Positions 5,639-45,385 of a stretch of 46,024 bases of DNA are shown here, one piece after another. The DNA is from an uncultured Lachnospiraceae bacterium. Its GTDB lineage: Bacteria > Bacillota > Clostridia > Lachnospirales > Lachnospiraceae. Made by a program: the position numbers and the translations under genes. The DNA lies in assembly GCA_902781215.1 (NCBI GenBank), contig CACZIO010000037.1, positions 1 to 46,024 on the forward strand. The letters run 5' to 3'. The first letter of the stretch is position 1, and every line of letters begins with the position of its first letter. A model generated the notes under the pieces. That model had not been told where the DNA came from. It did no database searches and saw only the letters and a list, made by a program, of their open reading frames with translations.

Positions 5639-5660
5639 CACGGAAAAGAAAAGAGAAAAA

Positions 5661-5795
5661 GAGCGAAAAAAACTGTCGATACAGTATTTTTCGCTCTCAG
5701 AGCTTTGTGCCGCGCGGCGGCCCAAAGCTCCGCTAATCGCATCGGAGAAACCCTTGCGGGCTTTCTCCTCGCGTTGCCGCTCTGACGAGCGGCAT
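5661..5795 (+). repeat. Multi-hairpin repeat element, copy 1
   Basis: Four consecutive hairpins. H0 (5661-5696): 16-bp GAGCGAAAAA-type arm closing on CGAT, one A-A mismatch. H1 (5701-5729): AGCTTTG...CAAAGCT around GCCGC/GCGGC. H2 (5744-5768): GGAGAAA/TTTCTCC with CCC/GGG. H3 (5776-5793): GCCGCTC-TGAC-GAGCGGC. The same four modules occur at 41584-41746 with compensated changes, and H0/H1 at 15426-15491. Ends 11 bp before the AEC permease start, just upstream of its ribosome site. Confidence 0.75.
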
Positions 5796-5806
5796 GGGAG
5801 GTAAGC

Positions 5807-11373: not shown

Positions 11374-11496
11374 CATGCGGCGCTGTCCCGCAGCCGGCAT
11401 CGCCGGAGGGAGAGCATGCGGCGCTGTCCCACAGCCGGCACGGTCAGAGGGAGAGCATGCGGCGCTGTCCCGCAGCCGGCATAACCGGAGGGACTG
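11374..11496 (+). repeat. Three tandem copies of a 41-bp repeat
   Basis: Units start at 11374, 11415 and 11456, each opening CATGCGGCGCTGTCCC. They differ at a few positions, mainly in the second half (GCCGGCATCGCCGG, GCCGGCACGGTCAG, GCCGGCATAACCGG); units 1 and 3 contain a short CCGG inverted repeat. The array fills half of the 275-bp gap between permease and binding-protein genes. Confidence 0.9.
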
Positions 11497-15425: not shown

Positions 15426-15491
15426 AGTAGTGAAAAAAACGCCCGGCAGCGTCTTTATACTCCGGAGCTTTGTGCCGGAGCACAAACCTCC
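15426..15491 (+). repeat. Multi-hairpin repeat element, partial copy 3
   Basis: Right after the kinase stop: an A-rich H0-like arm AAAAAACGC with GCGT (looser than in other copies), then H1 in altered form (15464-15491), GGAG-C-TTTGTGC paired with GCACAAA-C-CTCC. It shares GAGCTTTGTGCC with copy 1 (5700-5711). H2 and H3 are not recognisable. Confidence 0.55.
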
Positions 15492-15622
15492 ATCTGATGC
15501 AAAAGAGAGATCCCCTGGAGACATGCCGGACAGCAGGCGGATGTGCTTTGGTCTTTTCTGTCTGAAGCATATAGGGCTGCCGGGCCGGCGAAAGACCTGA
15601 CGGGAAAAGCAAGAGAGTTTCT

Positions 15623-36469: not shown

Positions 36470-36489
36470 GTACAAGTATTAACAGAATT

Positions 36490-36776
36490 CTGCAGGTGCC
36501 TCCGCTATTCAAATCGGAGGTGAAAAGGGAACCGGGTGGAAATCCCGGACTGTCCCGCAACTGTAATTGGCAGGAAGTCATATCCACTTTCCGCATACGG
36601 CCACTGGCAGCAGTTCACATTTACAGATTCTTCTCCGGGATCTGTATGTAACTGCATGGAATACTGCCGGGAAGGCGCGGAAAGGAGCCTGTGGTGGAAA
36701 CGTCACGAATTGTCATGACACATCATGACATGTTTCCGGACAGGCTGTGCCATAAGTCAGGAGACCTGCCTGCAGG
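36490..36776 (+). promoter_or_regulatory. Cobalamin riboswitch 1
   Basis: Conserved parts of the B12 aptamer are present in order: GAGGTGAAAAGGGAACCGGG, the segment ATCCCGGACTGTCCCGCAAC then TGTAA, CCACTGGCA, GCCGGGAAGGCG, and the B12 box AAGTCAGGAGACCTGCC. The closing helix is CTGCAGG (36490-36496) with CCTGCAG (36769-36775). It controls the exported CbiK-like chelatase gene 325 bp downstream, probably by termination at 36897-36926. Confidence 0.95.
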
Positions 36777-36896
36777 AGAATGTCTGTGGTCACGGTGCAT
36801 GACCGGAGGACAGAACAGAAGGTGATCTGCGCGGGAGCGTTCCGGCACAGCCGGGAAGACCTGCTGCGGGTTCTTTTGTTGTTTTCCGATGATGTG

Positions 36897-36926: not shown

Positions 36927-37101
36927 TATTACAGAGAGCCCTTTGCGGCAGGAAAGCCCTTTACAGCAGGTGATCAGGCAGCTGATCATGCCGGAATCCG
37001 GCGGAATGTCTGCCGACGCAATGCCCGCGGGCTGTCTGTGAGACGCAGTCGTGCGCCCGTACCACACTCGGAAGCACATTTGTTTTTCAAGAGGAGGAAC
37101 C

Positions 37102-38430
37102 ATGAAAAAGAAAGTTGCAGCAATCATTTTGTCAGCTGTCATGGCAGGTGCTCTTCTGGCCGGCTGCGGCAGCAGTGCAGGCAGCAGTTCCGCACCCGCT
37201 GAGAGCGCGGCAGAGGAGACAGAGGAAGAAGCCGGCGGCGAGGAAGCTGCGGAAGACGCAGGCGACACCGCTGAGACGGATGTTGCCCCCGCGGCAGACA
37301 CGGCAGCAGCGGCGGCGACCGTAGCGGCAGCCGGCCAGGTCGCAAAGACCGACGAGGAGCTGGCGGCTGAGTGCGCGGCCCTGATCGACGCCATCTATGT
37401 GCAGGAGCGCACAGAGACAACCGACGCGGATATCGCGGCGGCAAGGGCGGCATGGGATGCCCTGACCGATGAGCAGAAGGCCATGGTCGAAGGCGAGGAA
37501 GCGGATCCCGATTATTTCGGCCGCGACACCGGCGACGCCTCTGCGGATGATCCCCGCAACGGCGACGACATCGGCGAGAACGAGCTCCTGGTCGTGAGCT
37601 TCGGCACATCCTTCAACGAGAGCCGCGCGACCGATATCGGCGGCATCGAGGCAGCCCTGGAAGCGGCGTATCCGGACTGGTCCGTCCGCAGAGCCTTCAC
37701 CGCCCAGATCATCATCAACCATGTCCAGGCCCGCGACGACGAGGCCATCGACAACATCGACCAGGCCCTGGCCCGCGCCAAAGAGAACGGCGTTAAGAAC
37801 CTGGTGATCCAGCCCACACACCTGATGCACGGCGCCGAGTATGACGAGCTCACCGCCGCTGTCGACGCAGTGAAGGGCGACTTTGAGTCCGTCCGCATCG
37901 CGGAGCCCCTCCTGGGCGAGGTCGGCGAGGACGCCACGGCTGTCAACGACGACAAGAAGGCCGTTGCGGAAGCCGTCACGGCGGAAGCGGTGAAGGAAGC
38001 AGGCTATGACAGCCTTGATGCCGCCGCACAGGACGGAACAGCCTTCGTATTCATGGGCCACGGAACCGCGCATGTCGCCAAGGTGACCTACAGCCAGATG
38101 CAGTCCCAGATGGATGAGCTTGGCTATAAGAACGTCTTCATCGGAACCGTCGAGGGTGAACCCGAGGAAACCTCCTGCGAGAACATCATCGCAAGGGTCA
38201 AGGAAGCCGGTTATAAGAAGGTCATCCTTCGTCCCCTGATGGTCGTGGCGGGCGATCACGCCAACAACGACATGGCCGGCGACGACGAGGATTCCTGGAA
38301 GAGCATGTTCACGGCGGACGGGAGCTTCGATAGCGTCGACTGCCAGATCGCGGGTCTCGGCCGCATTCCTGAAGTCCAGGCCCTCTATGTGACCCACACC
38401 GGCGCAGCCATGGAGGCGGACGCGGACTAG
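37102..38430 (+). CDS. Exported CbiK-like sirohydrochlorin/tetrapyrrole chelatase, lipoprotein
   Basis: A 442-residue predicted lipoprotein: signal with lipobox LLAGC (Cys22), a Glu/Ala-rich tether, a short helical domain (about 92-145), then a CbiK-type chelatase domain (about 173-435). Candidate metal residues follow the CbiK pattern: His in QPTHLMHGAEYD, Glu in GTVEGEP and His in VAGDHANND, plus FMGHGTAH. Cytosolic CbiK inserts cobalt in B12 synthesis; an extracellular form suggests a role in tetrapyrrole or metal capture, as proposed for exported CbiK homologs. It is under a B12 riboswitch. GAGGAGG precedes the ATG by 4 nt. The frame stops at a TAG (38428-38430), but meaningful sequence continues in the same frame (38431-38829), so the full product may be longer. 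Confidence 0.88.
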   Translation: MKKKVAAIILSAVMAGALLAGCGSSAGSSSAPAESAAEETEEEAGGEEAAEDAGDTAETDVAPAADTAAAAATVAAAGQVAKTDEELAAECAALIDAIYVQERTETTDADIAAARAAWDALTDEQKAMVEGEEADPDYFGRDTGDASADDPRNGDDIGENELLVVSFGTSFNESRATDIGGIEAALEAAYPDWSVRRAFTAQIIINHVQARDDEAIDNIDQALARAKENGVKNLVIQPTHLMHGAEYDELTAAVDAVKGDFESVRIAEPLLGEVGEDATAVNDDKKAVAEAVTAEAVKEAGYDSLDAAAQDGTAFVFMGHGTAHVAKVTYSQMQSQMDELGYKNVFIGTVEGEPEETSCENIIARVKEAGYKKVILRPLMVVAGDHANNDMAGDDEDSWKSMFTADGSFDSVDCQIAGLGRIPEVQALYVTHTGAAMEADAD

Positions 38431-41099: not shown

Positions 41100-41395
41100 A
41101 TCCGGTGTCTCCTTTATTTATGCCTCACTGTTTATCTCAGTGGGGAAGAGCGCCGCTTTTATAAGCGGGACGTAAGAATCATGAGTGAGTCTTGAATGTC
41201 TTTTTCTCTTTTCCCTGTCTATTCTAATCTCTTTTGTCCATATGATTGTCATTATTTTTGTTTTAATGGGATAAATTTTGGAATTGCGGGATCATGGTCC
41301 TTCCAGGTGATGATGACAACTCAGCCTTTGCTGTAACATGAAAAATACGAAAATACAAAAAAAGCATAATAATTACAAAGAACAGCTGAAATCTG

Positions 41396-41404
41396 TGTTA
41401 TAAT
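41396..41404 (+). promoter_or_regulatory. Extended -10 promoter of the second B12 riboswitch
   Basis: TGTTATAAT (TG-n-TATAAT) 16 bp before the riboswitch; TTACAA at 41373-41378 is too far (20 nt) for a normal -35. The AT-rich stretch 41100-41395 holds nothing else I can identify. Confidence 0.6.
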
Positions 41405-41419
41405 GGCAGAAATTCAAAT

Positions 41420-41789
41420 CTTTCACAGCGCTCACAAGAGCTCAATAAGGAATCCGGTTGAAAACCGGAGCAGCCCCCGCTACTGTGAGGCAGACAAATC
41501 CCGTTCCAGATTGCCGGACATTTTCCGTACCGGACGACATCAGGGAAGTCACTGAGACATTATTCTCGGGAAGACAGGGAGAAGAGTGAAAAAAACGCTT
41601 GATAGCGTTTTTTCACTCCAGCATTTGTGCCGCGAGGCGGCCCAAATTGCATGATCCTTCAGAGAATATCGCCAATTTCAAAGCCCTTATATGTAAGGCT
41701 TTGAAATGCGAATTTCTCTTCAGGTTGCCGCTCTGACGAGCGGCATTATCAGAAAGGATGAAGCCAAGCCAGGAGACTTACTGTGAAAG
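41420..41789 (+). promoter_or_regulatory. Cobalamin riboswitch 2, with a repeat element inside the aptamer
   Basis: B12 aptamer parts in order: AAGGAATCCGG, TGAAAACCGGAGC, AGCCCCCGCTACTGTGAGG, TCAGGGAAGTCACTG, CTCGGGAAGACAGGG, then, after a 163-bp multi-hairpin repeat (41584-41746), GGATGAAGCCAAGCCAGGAG and ACTTACTG (B12 box). A perfect 9-bp closing helix, CTTTCACAG (41420-41428) with CTGTGAAAG (41781-41789), spans everything, so the element lies inside the aptamer, probably as an extra arm in a variable peripheral region. It should control cobT and cobQ, with a terminator at 42101-42132. Confidence 0.9.
41584..41746 (+). repeat. Multi-hairpin repeat element, copy 2 (inside riboswitch 2)
   Basis: H0 (41584-41618): GAGTGAAAAA-type arm with one bulged A, loop TGAT, ending in T6 before CACTC. 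H1 (41621-41650): ATTTG...CAAAT around GCCGC-GAG-GCGGC. H2 (41661-41719): long arm with AGAGAA/TTCTCT outside and an 11-bp ATTTCAAAGCC/GGCTTTGAAAT stem inside. H3 (41727-41744): GCCGCTC-TGAC-GAGCGGC, identical to copy 1 over 23 nt. Confidence 0.75.
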
Positions 41790-42100
41790 GAAAACGGCCT
41801 TCCTCGGTGGGAGGAAGAGACGGTCAGAGCAGAAGAAACAGGAACAAGAGACAAGTCCTGTCCATGGTCAGTTCATTGCTGCGGCGCATACTTATATTGC
41901 ATCGCTGCGGAGGAGACAGAGAGAACACAGGACTAGGACAGCCTGGATCCGACGCTTTTTTGACAGAATCAGAATCTGCGGGGGCATTCTGCAATCAGGG
42001 CGGAACGTCCCCGTTTCTATTTTACAAGCTGGATGCCGCCCATCCATACCGGACATGTTCATTTGTTGTTAAAAATCCCCAGTTTTTAGCATGATGATAT

Positions 42101-42132
42101 GACAAAAGCGGCATCTCCTGCCGCTTTTTGTC
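42101..42132 (+). terminator. Terminator in the cobT leader
   Basis: A 13-bp stem (GACAAAAGCGGCA with TGCCGCTTTTTGTC), 5-nt loop. It lies 49 bp before cobT and 310 bp after the riboswitch, so it is the likely expression platform. The stretch 41790-42100 between holds no convincing gene, only a REP-like GGAACGTCCCC near 42001. Confidence 0.85.
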
Positions 42133-42181
42133 TATGCGGATTTACGAAATTTGAAACTTCTTACGGGAGGTATAGAGAACA

Positions 42182-43480
42182 ATGGACACGTTTCAGGAGA
42201 AACTCCGGGAAAGGATGACGGAACAGGAACTGAATGAACTGCTGCAGGGAGTCCGCGGCGCGGACGCGGAGGCTGCACAGGCGGCGCGGCGGTACGTCGA
42301 GTCATTGGCGGCGCCGCCCGGAAGCCTGGGCAAGCTCACCGATGCAGCCATCCAGCTGGCCGGAATCACCGGCAGGGTGAATAACACTGTGAAGCGCAGG
42401 CGGATCATCGTCCTGTGCGCGGACAACGGGGTCGTCGAGGAGGGAGTCTCCTCCACACCGCCCATCGTCACCCTTTCCCAGGCTCTGAACATGACCAGGC
42501 ACCTGACCGGAATGTCCGCCATGGCCGCCCATTTTGGCTGCGATGTGGATGTCGTGGATGTCGGGATCGCGACGCCCTATGAGATTCCCCGGAATACCGG
42601 TGCTGAAAGTGCAGCAGAAGGGCATGCTGATTCGGATAATATCAGCATTTCCGCAGAAACGAAGTCTGGACAGAGAGCGGAATCTGTCGGACGGGCGGGA
42701 TCTGGAATCGTTCAGCGCAGGATTCGCCGTGGCACGGGCAACATTGCCAAGGAGCCCGCGATGACGCGTGAGGAGGCCATTGCTGCAATCGGTGTCGGGA
42801 TCGAGCGCGCCCGGAAGGCACATCAGGACGGGATTCAGGTGATCGGTGTCGGCGAGATGGGCATCGGCAATACGACGACATCCTCCGCGGTCCTCGCGGC
42901 ACTGACAGGCCTGGCTGTGGAGACCGTGACCGGTCGGGGCGGCGGGCTGACGGACGCCGCTTTCGCGAAAAAGAAACGGGTCATCGCAGACGCCTTAAAA
43001 CTCCACGGGCTGGACACGCAGAGGAGCGCCCGTCAGAATGCCTTTCGGCGGGAAGGAACGGATGGCACCGCGGAGGCTGACGGGGTGCCGGATGTCATCG
43101 ATATTCTGGCAAAGGTCGGCGGCCTGGACCTGGCGGCCATGTGCGGTGTTTTTCTCGGCGCTGCCATCTTCCGGATCCCGGTCGTCATCGACGGCTTTAT
43201 CTCCATCGTGGCAGCTCTCTGCGCCAAGAGAATCTGCCCGTTCAGCAGGGATTTTATGTTCCCATCCCATGCCTCGGAGGAGATCGGCTATATGCGCGCC
43301 GCCAGGGAACTCAAACTGGACCCCTGGCTTCAGCTGAACATGCGCCTGGGCGAGGGCAGCGGCTGCCCCCTGGCCTTCCAGGTCCTGGAAGCCGCCTGTG
43401 TGCTCATGAATGACATGGCAACTTTTGAGGAGGCGCAGATCGACGACGGGTACCTGGCGGAGATCCGCGCCATGCGGTAG
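42182..43480 (+). CDS. cobT: Nicotinate-nucleotide--dimethylbenzimidazole phosphoribosyltransferase
   Basis: Activates the lower ligand base of cobamides by moving phosphoribose from nicotinate mononucleotide to the base. Family motifs: LAAPPGSLGKLTDAAIQLAG (about 41-60), LCADNGVVEEGVSSTPP (about 79-95), GTGNIAKEPAMTREEA, GEMGIGNTTTSSAV (about 223-236), GRGGGLTD, and FSRDFMFPSHASEEIGYM (about 352-369) with the catalytic Glu region. The usual length is about 350; this has 432 because of two hydrophilic inserts, about 137-180 (Ser/Glu/Gly-rich) and about 282-305. GGGAGG lies 12 nt before the ATG. First gene after riboswitch 2; cobQ follows after 252 bp of hairpin array. It ends in TAG. Confidence 0.94.
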   Translation: MDTFQEKLRERMTEQELNELLQGVRGADAEAAQAARRYVESLAAPPGSLGKLTDAAIQLAGITGRVNNTVKRRRIIVLCADNGVVEEGVSSTPPIVTLSQALNMTRHLTGMSAMAAHFGCDVDVVDVGIATPYEIPRNTGAESAAEGHADSDNISISAETKSGQRAESVGRAGSGIVQRRIRRGTGNIAKEPAMTREEAIAAIGVGIERARKAHQDGIQVIGVGEMGIGNTTTSSAVLAALTGLAVETVTGRGGGLTDAAFAKKKRVIADALKLHGLDTQRSARQNAFRREGTDGTAEADGVPDVIDILAKVGGLDLAAMCGVFLGAAIFRIPVVIDGFISIVAALCAKRICPFSRDFMFPSHASEEIGYMRAARELKLDPWLQLNMRLGEGSGCPLAFQVLEAACVLMNDMATFEEAQIDDGYLAEIRAMR

Positions 43481-43732: not shown

Positions 43733-45385
43733 ATGGTGAAAGCAATCATGATCCAGGGGACCATGTCCAATGCGGGCAAGAGCCTGCTGGCGGCTGGTCT
43801 GTGCCGGATCTTCCGGCAGGACGGCTACCGGGTCGCCCCTTTCAAATCCCAGAATATGGCCCTCAACTCCTACATCACAGCCGACGGGCTGGAGATGGGG
43901 CGGGCCCAGGTCATGCAGGCGGAAGCCGCCGGGATCGAGCCGGATGTCCGGATGAACCCGGTCCTGCTCAAACCCACCACAGATACCGGATCCCAGGTCA
44001 TTGTGCGGGGCGAGGTCCTGGGCGACATGGACGCCAGGAAGTATTTTTCCTACAAGAGGAGCCTCATGCCCATGATCCTGGAGTCCTATCGGTCTCTGGC
44101 TTCGGAGTATGATATCATTGTCATTGAGGGCGCCGGGAGCCCCGCCGAGATCAATCTGAAAAAGGATGACATCGTCAACATGGGGCTGGCAAAAGCGGTC
44201 GGCGCGCCGGTCCTGCTGGCCGGCGACATTGACCGGGGCGGGGTCTTTGCCCAGCTTCTGGGCACGCAGATGCTGCTGGATCCGGACGAGCAGGCCCTGC
44301 TCAAGGGCTTTATCATCAACAAATTCCGGGGCGACAAGACAATTTTGGATCCGGGGATCGCCATGCTGGAGGAGCGGGGCGGGATCCCGGTCGTCGGCGT
44401 GGTGCCCTACATGCAGCTGGACATCGACGACGAGGATTCCCTGGCGCCGCAGCTGGCGCAGACCAACCGGTCTCCGGCGGGGAAACCGGTGGAGATCGCG
44501 GTCGTCCGGATCCCCCACCTGTCCAACTTCACGGATTTTAATGTTTTTTCCAGAATCCCGGAGGTCGATCTGCGCTACGTGTCGCGGCCGGATGCCCTGG
44601 GCGATCCCGATATGGTCATTCTGCCGGGATCGAAGAATACCATGGCGGACCTGCGCTGGCTGCGTGAGAGCGGCATGGCGGCGGCGGTCGATGAGATGCG
44701 GCAGCGGGGACGCGTGATCTTCGGCGTCTGCGGCGGCTACCAGATGCTGGGCCGCTGGATCGCGGATCCGGACAGGACCGAGGAAGGCGGAACCGCGGAG
44801 GGACTGGGATACCTGAACCTGGAAACGGTTTTTTCTTCTGAAAAACGGCGCACCCGGGTCCGAGGCCGGATCGGGAACCTGCCGGGACCTCTGCAGGCCC
44901 TGGGCGGCATGGAGATCGAGGGCTATGAGATCCACATGGGCCGCACGGAAGCAGCCCGCAGGGATGCGTGCAGGAGCGCTTCAGGAGAGCCAGACGTGTC
45001 GCCTGATTCACATATTTCCTGCGAAAGCCGGGAAAATGCTGATATAGAGAGCGGGAAAACAACGACAAAGGCGGAGGCTTTCTGCCATATTCGGGACCTG
45101 CGCACGGAAGAGGAAGCTCCGGACGGAGCCGCGTGGGAAAATGTCTACGGGACCTACGTACACGGAGTCTTTGACGCACCCGGCGTCGCCCGCCGGATCT
45201 CGCAGATCCTGGCGGAGAGAAAAGGGTTTATGCTGGCGCAAGGGAACGAAAAAGGCACAGGAGCAGAAGCAGAGAATCCACTGACATATAAAGAGGTTCA
45301 GTATGATCTGCTGGCGGAAACGCTGCGGGAACATCTGGATATGCCGAAGATCTATAAGATTCTGGACGGTTCCATGGAGTCTTGA
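43733..45385 (+). CDS. cobQ: Cobyric acid synthase
   Basis: ATP- and glutamine-dependent amidation of the b, d, e and g side chains of adenosylcobyrinic diamide. The N-terminal P-loop domain has IQGTMSNAGKSLLAAGL (7-23), KSQNMALNSY (about 38-47) and VLLAGDIDRGGVF (about 161-173); the C-terminal glutaminase has the nucleophile C333 in GVCGGYQMLG and H477 in TYVHGVFD. An insert (about 405-445, Ser/Glu/Lys-rich) between the last two motifs makes it 550 residues instead of about 500. The start MVKAIMIQGT fits the family. It is downstream of cobT in the riboswitch 2 unit; no other corrin ring genes are in the window, so the rest of the pathway, if present, lies elsewhere. Confidence 0.95.
   Translation: MVKAIMIQGTMSNAGKSLLAAGLCRIFRQDGYRVAPFKSQNMALNSYITADGLEMGRAQVMQAEAAGIEPDVRMNPVLLKPTTDTGSQVIVRGEVLGDMDARKYFSYKRSLMPMILESYRSLASEYDIIVIEGAGSPAEINLKKDDIVNMGLAKAVGAPVLLAGDIDRGGVFAQLLGTQMLLDPDEQALLKGFIINKFRGDKTILDPGIAMLEERGGIPVVGVVPYMQLDIDDEDSLAPQLAQTNRSPAGKPVEIAVVRIPHLSNFTDFNVFSRIPEVDLRYVSRPDALGDPDMVILPGSKNTMADLRWLRESGMAAAVDEMRQRGRVIFGVCGGYQMLGRWIADPDRTEEGGTAEGLGYLNLETVFSSEKRRTRVRGRIGNLPGPLQALGGMEIEGYEIHMGRTEAARRDACRSASGEPDVSPDSHISCESRENADIESGKTTTKAEAFCHIRDLRTEEEAPDGAAWENVYGTYVHGVFDAPGVARRISQILAERKGFMLAQGNEKGTGAEAENPLTYKEVQYDLLAETLREHLDMPKIYKILDGSMES

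Follow-up and report, generated by a model that had tools for sequence, protein, structure and literature searches.

Long variable arms are a known feature of riboswitches. For the cobalamin riboswitch, 'variable insertions' are mentioned in one survey (Barrick & Breaker 2007, PMC2258182); the locus described here concerns the same aptamer, with the insertion being a repeat that has dozens of copies in the genome. In pneumococcus, a BOX repeat is located between two T-box riboswitches upstream of trp, and these riboswitches were inferred to be still functional (Croucher 2011, PMC3049150). In that case, too, a regulatory leader contains an interspersed repeat that is modular and folded, but the likeness is by kind only, as BOX separates two whole riboswitches and lies outside the aptamer, and as repeat, organism and ligand are all different. 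ERIC, BIME and RUP (named in the same article) and RU (PMC2759123) are also short, folded and dispersed intergenic repeats. In contrast to these, the present element consists of four separate hairpins, and neither terminal inverted repeats nor a consistent target duplication, which would mark a MITE, were seen by eye in a 27-row alignment; many of its copies end by repeating their own start (AAAGAGTGAA), and tandem copies occur that are joined exactly, the end of one running into the start of the next. Within the open-licence literature retrieved, part of which was off-topic, no earlier description of an aptamer that contains a dispersed repeat was found.

The window analysed here is a stretch of 46,024 nucleotides from an uncultured Lachnospiraceae bacterium (contig CACZIO010000037.1), the genome of which comprises 3.33 Mb in 132 contigs and is 94.7% complete. 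The three named records nearest to its CobT come from metagenome isolates that carry the label Lachnospiraceae or Eubacteriales, with roe deer omasum as the source of one, and the bacterium probably has a gut or rumen-type habitat. The whole genome holds two cobalamin riboswitches as judged by RF00174, both of which reside in the window, at 36477-36787 and at 41409-41799. The latter is matched on the forward strand over the full length of the model (positions 1-189) with 63.4 bits at a gathering score of 31.5, and by this covariance-model threshold it is a cobalamin riboswitch, as had been proposed in a preliminary description of this DNA, with the B12 box at the place given there (41766-41777). 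The model treats 41592-41761 as a single huge insertion. Downstream of the aptamer lie the B12 genes cobT and then cobQ, and the riboswitch and its surroundings consist of the following parts:

41409..41799, + strand: cobalamin (B12) riboswitch aptamer including the inserted element (RF00174)
41420..41428, + strand: P1 5' strand CTTTCACAG (sequence; predicted mean pair probability of P1 0.977)
41473..41480, + strand: L5 loop GCCCCCGC (sequence; conserved in nine relatives)
41499..41502, + strand: P7 5' strand TCCC, pairing with 41577-41580 (predicted fold)
41548..41575, + strand: P10 arm with GGGAAG (covariance-model alignment, predicted fold)
41766..41777, + strand: B12 box AAGCCAGGAGAC (covariance-model alignment)
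41781..41789, + strand: P1 3' strand CTGTGAAAG (sequence)
41970..41991, + strand: candidate L13 hairpin, loop GCGGGGGC (41978-41985) an exact complement of L5
42066..42097, + strand: leader block TTGTTAAAAATCCCCAGTTTTTAGCATGATGA, common to the window and the relative G009
42101..42132, + strand: terminator-like hairpin preceding cobT (sequence)
42182..43480, + strand: cobT (TIGR03160, 361.5 bits at a cut-off of 319.3)
43733..45385, + strand: cobQ, cobyric acid synthase (NF001989 and TIGR00313, each above its cut-off)

The two strands of P1 (41420-41428 and 41781-41789) form a perfect helix of 9 bp that spans the insert, again in agreement with what had first been described. A side domain of P8-P10-P11 marks the AdoCbl (Cbl-I) subclass. 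Here, P10 is present, while the arm preceding it is unlike that of the relatives; the riboswitch would be of the P8-P10 side-domain type, and adenosylcobalamin is the expected ligand. A pattern scan found no sigma-70-like promoter pattern on the + strand of 41200-42250, and the pattern scan did not pick up the terminator-like hairpin at 42101-42132.

The insert itself, and two further copies of the same element in the window, are located as follows:

41582..41756, + strand: four-hairpin interspersed element, full length, on the strand of cobT (covariance model R1, 128 bits, model positions 1-148)
41584..41618, + strand: element hairpin A (predicted fold, covariation)
41619..41653, + strand: element hairpin B (predicted fold, covariation)
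41656..41724, + strand: element hairpin C, long form (predicted fold; covariation at its base)
41726..41745, + strand: element hairpin D (predicted fold; little covariation)
5659..5805, + strand: second full copy, short form of hairpin C (R1, 145 bits)
15426..15608, + strand: degenerate third copy (R1, 33.8 bits)

The element lies 3' of P7/P10 and 5' of the B12 box and, at 175 nt, is longer than the 163 originally assigned to it (41582-41756 is the corrected extent). Each end could be off by some 3-4 nt, as excision of the element leaves a gap of 18 nt compared to 21-23 in relatives. In the aligned copies the element starts with AAGAGTGAAAA and ends near GGTCGGAAAG, with hairpins A-D between; hairpin C exists in a short and a long form, the latter being that of the inserted copy. 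Folding of the isolated element yielded a z-score of -9.35 against 200 shuffled sequences. When 41580-41760 was compared to its own genome by blastn, 74 pieces were obtained at E<=10, the query itself included, among them near-complete copies at C26 (85%, E 4.8e-50), C17 (83%) and C22 (73%). The covariance model R1, built from 24 copies with the window insert among them, matches the insert from end to end and has at least 50 matches in the same genome. The element is a genuine dispersed repeat with shared sequence and structure, and the earlier view that a complete multi-hairpin repeat resides inside the aptamer was borne out by both searches.

Across the genus, R1 matched 42 of the 62 genomes at E<=0.01 (own genome included), with high counts per genome being lower bounds, and at E<=1e-4 in 20 of 150 genomes of sampled genera of the family (own included), with up to at least 18 in another genus; the genus and family scans by R1 and RF00174 (over 40 genomes) used stricter Infernal filters, which may lose weak and perhaps long matches. 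The analysis brings out a structured repeat family, present in 20 of the 150 sampled genera of the family, that had no Rfam match in the scans made, that is, none overlapping the element in the window (E<=1) and none in 11 loci from other genera.

Evidence on how the repeat came to lie in the aptamer is provided by related riboswitches. Nine riboswitches of the genus, which score 88-99 bits with RF00174, align over the aptamer and do not have the element. The spacing from GGGAAG of P10 to the B12 box is 21-23 nt in these nine (21 in G055, counted by eye) as opposed to 193 nt here. In the window the order is GGGAAGACAGGGAGA, the element and AGGATGAAGCC, the first bases past the element being common to the element's end, and the flank resumes in register: four of the nine read GGGAAGACGGGACGG followed by AGGATGAAGCC, and the rest deviate at a few bases, with more deviations in G009. 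Using a profile HMM of the nine, nhmmer gave one match of 110.0 bits to the joined flanks, which broke up into two (77.0 and 21.1 bits) when the element was left in place, and the corresponding whole-sequence scores by hmmsearch were 119.2 and 106.8. Insertion into the aptamer is therefore well supported by the empty sites together with the genome-wide repeat match. The genus as a whole yielded 44 RF00174 matches (42 above the cut-off), distributed over 37 of its 62 genomes and with spans of 100-391 nt, and the present aptamer is the longest of them (391 nt), followed by two of 313 and 311 nt. A cobalamin riboswitch of 313 nt (G029:C53:38380-38692) is located in a genome without a match to the element. 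Best-scoring cobalamin riboswitch matches are biased toward short aptamers, and ten of 25 riboswitch loci span 196-210 nt in all and are therefore too short to hold the element. No relative with the same long arm was seen in the genus and the covariance model does not place the B12 box elsewhere, so that the insertion proposed in the preliminary description stands uncontradicted.

That description had also suggested looking for an empty site in related cobT leaders. The nine related riboswitches do lack the element, but none of them was found to precede cobT: seven are located upstream of a cbiK-like gene, the leader of G009 precedes an aminotransferase and a CbiC gene, and the riboswitch of G010 has neither cbiK nor cobT within 5 kb. 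The empty site is therefore one by sequence and not by position. The leader of G009 shares with the window the aptamer and the block TTGTTAARAATCCCCAGTTTTTARCATGATGA, a core pattern of which was found in this one of the nine relatives' leaders and was not found in the other eight, as well as a terminator-like hairpin, which has a different stem there. The same leader (L068:372-556) also harbours a Clostridiales-1 RNA (RF01699, 75.8 bits) between its L13 motif and the terminator-like hairpin.

A junction at a repeat may also be produced by assembly, as repeats can misjoin and as this 132-contig genome may be metagenome-assembled like those of its nearest named relatives. However, the two flanks form a perfect P1 and, when joined, give a riboswitch near the length of its relatives (a gap of 18 versus 21-23 nt), which a chance misjoin would not be expected to fit. 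We thus regard an assembly artefact as highly improbable.

Taken together, we propose that a full copy of the dispersed four-hairpin element has been inserted into J7/6 of the cobalamin riboswitch of cobT-cobQ, where it forms an extra arm, and that the switch is most likely still working; we would assign this explanation a probability of about 0.72. The riboswitch would control cobT-cobQ, probably via transcription termination. The copy would have entered, on the transcript strand, the linker just 3' of P7 (J7/6), a point that would separate the 5' half of the ligand-binding core from the B12 box. During transcription the element is expected to fold locally and to leave the contacts free; with four hairpins folding by themselves as an extra arm, P1, P2, P4, P7, P10, the B12 box and the L5-L13 kissing loop could therefore form. 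Judging from known cobalamin riboswitches, the ligand would then hold P6/B12 box and the L5-L13 contact, favouring the terminator before cobT.

Several features of the aptamer are consistent with a functional switch. Across the ten sequences, both sides have changed in 5 of 10 pairs of P1, and none of the ten pairs is lost in the window, where one is a U-G; only columns of P1, P2 and P4 were counted, and in the plain alignment the B12 box of the relatives fell opposite the first part of the element. L5 (41473-41480) and the loop of the candidate L13 are exact complements over 8 nt and could form the kissing contact. The L13 motif occurs 3' of the aptamer in all nine relatives, in seven exactly and in two with one change, and is located much nearer to the aptamer there than in the window. 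In the predicted minimum-energy fold of the whole aptamer, P1 closes the domain and the element stands as separate hairpins within. The predicted mean pair probabilities of P1, P2, P4, P7 and P10 are 0.98, 0.80, 0.98, 0.91 and 0.92 with the element and 0.98, 0.91, 0.97, 0.92 and 0.91 with the flanks joined; four of the five helices are thus predicted to be equally probable in both states, while P2 falls from 0.91 to 0.80. With shuffled inserts, the means were 0.35 for P7, 0.75 for P10, 0.95 for P1 and 0.93 for P4. Random inserts accordingly largely spare P1 and P4, the five-helix mean of the real element is matched by 24 of 300 shuffles, and the reversed element is about equal to the real one except for P2 (0.63), so that the benign folding is only weakly special.

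The alternative to be weighed at this point is that the insertion has damaged the switch and that the leader is constitutively on or off, with decay yet to come. The element has been seen at the riboswitch site in one genome only, and an additional 175 nt have to be transcribed after the first half of the binding site before the second half is reached. Even the closest other copy in the alignment shares only about 84% identity with the inserted one, which does not fix the date of the insertion; a count of private changes would be a poor clock, as the alignment is shifted in P8/P10 and as the donor copy carries its own age. In addition, a U-G pair adjoining P1 in the relatives is C-A in the window. 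C-A can mimic U-G when the A is protonated, but the change may also be damage. On the other hand, the core is conserved, no pair of P1 is lost, L5 and L13 still match, a terminator-like hairpin is present, and the predicted helix probabilities are nearly unchanged except for P2. Damage is therefore unlikely in our view, and the element is likely to be tolerated as an extra arm. Of the original suggestion of an inserted repeat that hangs off the aptamer and leaves the switch working, the insertion is well supported, and the working arm is a prediction consistent with the intact core; adoption by the riboswitch, which had been raised as well, would go beyond these observations.

It might further be speculated that the element is more than a tolerated passenger and represents a functional RNA module, acting for example in processing, stability or protein binding, which would place the cobT leader under an additional level of control. 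Such a role would not conflict with the explanation proposed above and goes further. Related elements occur in other genera, and on the 24 copies of the alignment a structure of 52 pairs is 95.6% paired, with both sides changed in 23 of the 52 pairs. Its covariation score is 0.250 compared to 0.091 for shuffled alignments (0 of 500 as high) and 0.026-0.067 for slid versions; related copies among the 24 inflate covariation scores, and the structure has an advantage over its slid versions because part of it was derived from the consensus predicted for this alignment. Covariation in hairpins can, however, also arise through the correction of palindromes. Among 20 copies from six genomes of other genera, hairpins A and C are shared and B keeps the sequence plan with different bases, whereas the 3' part (D) is variable and some predicted folds pair B with D instead of leaving B on its own; outside the genus, the term 'four-hairpin' is therefore less sure.

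The orientation of the copies points in the same direction. In a sample of 92 distinct full copies (106 before removal of duplicates), with loci chosen mainly by high score and genes called by a home-made codon model, the element lies on the strand of the two flanking genes in 61 cases and on the strand opposite to both in 11 (61 of 72 decided cases); counting one copy per locus, the numbers are 50 and 8 of 76 (50 of 58 decided). The stop codon of the upstream same-strand gene falls on element positions 6-8 in 16 of 70 cases (TGA; TAA in two), and a downstream start codon follows 1-2 nt past the element in 6 of 69. An insertion mechanism could cause such a strand bias as well, and we know of no binding protein or RNase for the element. 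Moreover, by curated Rfam thresholds, 60 other loci with whole or partial copies contain two tRNAs, one SRP RNA and no regulatory RNA, and the insertion into a riboswitch is therefore unusual for the element, too. A functional role as a second control layer thus appears rather improbable, and we are similarly doubtful of the wider notion that the multi-hairpin element, spread over many Lachnospiraceae, serves operons as a portable RNA module under selection and has now become part of an aptamer. If the latter were true, dispersed repeats would supply riboswitches with arms and possibly with second inputs.

The insertion into J7/6 proposed here provides a concrete case in which the arm of a riboswitch is a copy of a dispersed repeat and in which related riboswitches have the empty site; the origin and tolerance of aptamer arms are therefore directly testable. 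This suggests that the insertion of repeats is one route by which riboswitches gain parts.

With regard to the mobility of the element, a Y1 transposase (PF01797) in the manner of REP/RAYT was considered as mobiliser and rejected, as its presence does not track that of the element: three genomes (G031, G040 and G038; 80-96% complete) have 41-48 element matches and zero Y1_Tnp matches, while another (G061) has 38 Y1_Tnp matches and zero element matches. Two further stretches of the window were considered as repeat insertions and rejected. For 41790-41980, as a possible second insertion, no repeat copies were found in ten genomes (best other E 0.0035). The other riboswitch of the window (36477-36787, 103 bits with RF00174), which precedes a CbiK-type gene, carries two long extra arms, neither of which is a repeat in its own genome; no copies of 36600-36760 were found (best other E 0.13). 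The CbiK-like protein encoded at 37051-38430 bears a lipoprotein-like signal, its CbiK domain is preceded by well over 100 additional residues, and its score of 188 bits is under the NCBIfam CbiK cut-off of 400. Other repeats of the window are a tandem repeat with a period of 45 nt at 40-852 (15 overlapping register copies), located inside a predicted gene at 2-919, and three direct repeats of 41 nt at 11374-11496, the second and third of which are 88 and 90% identical to the first.
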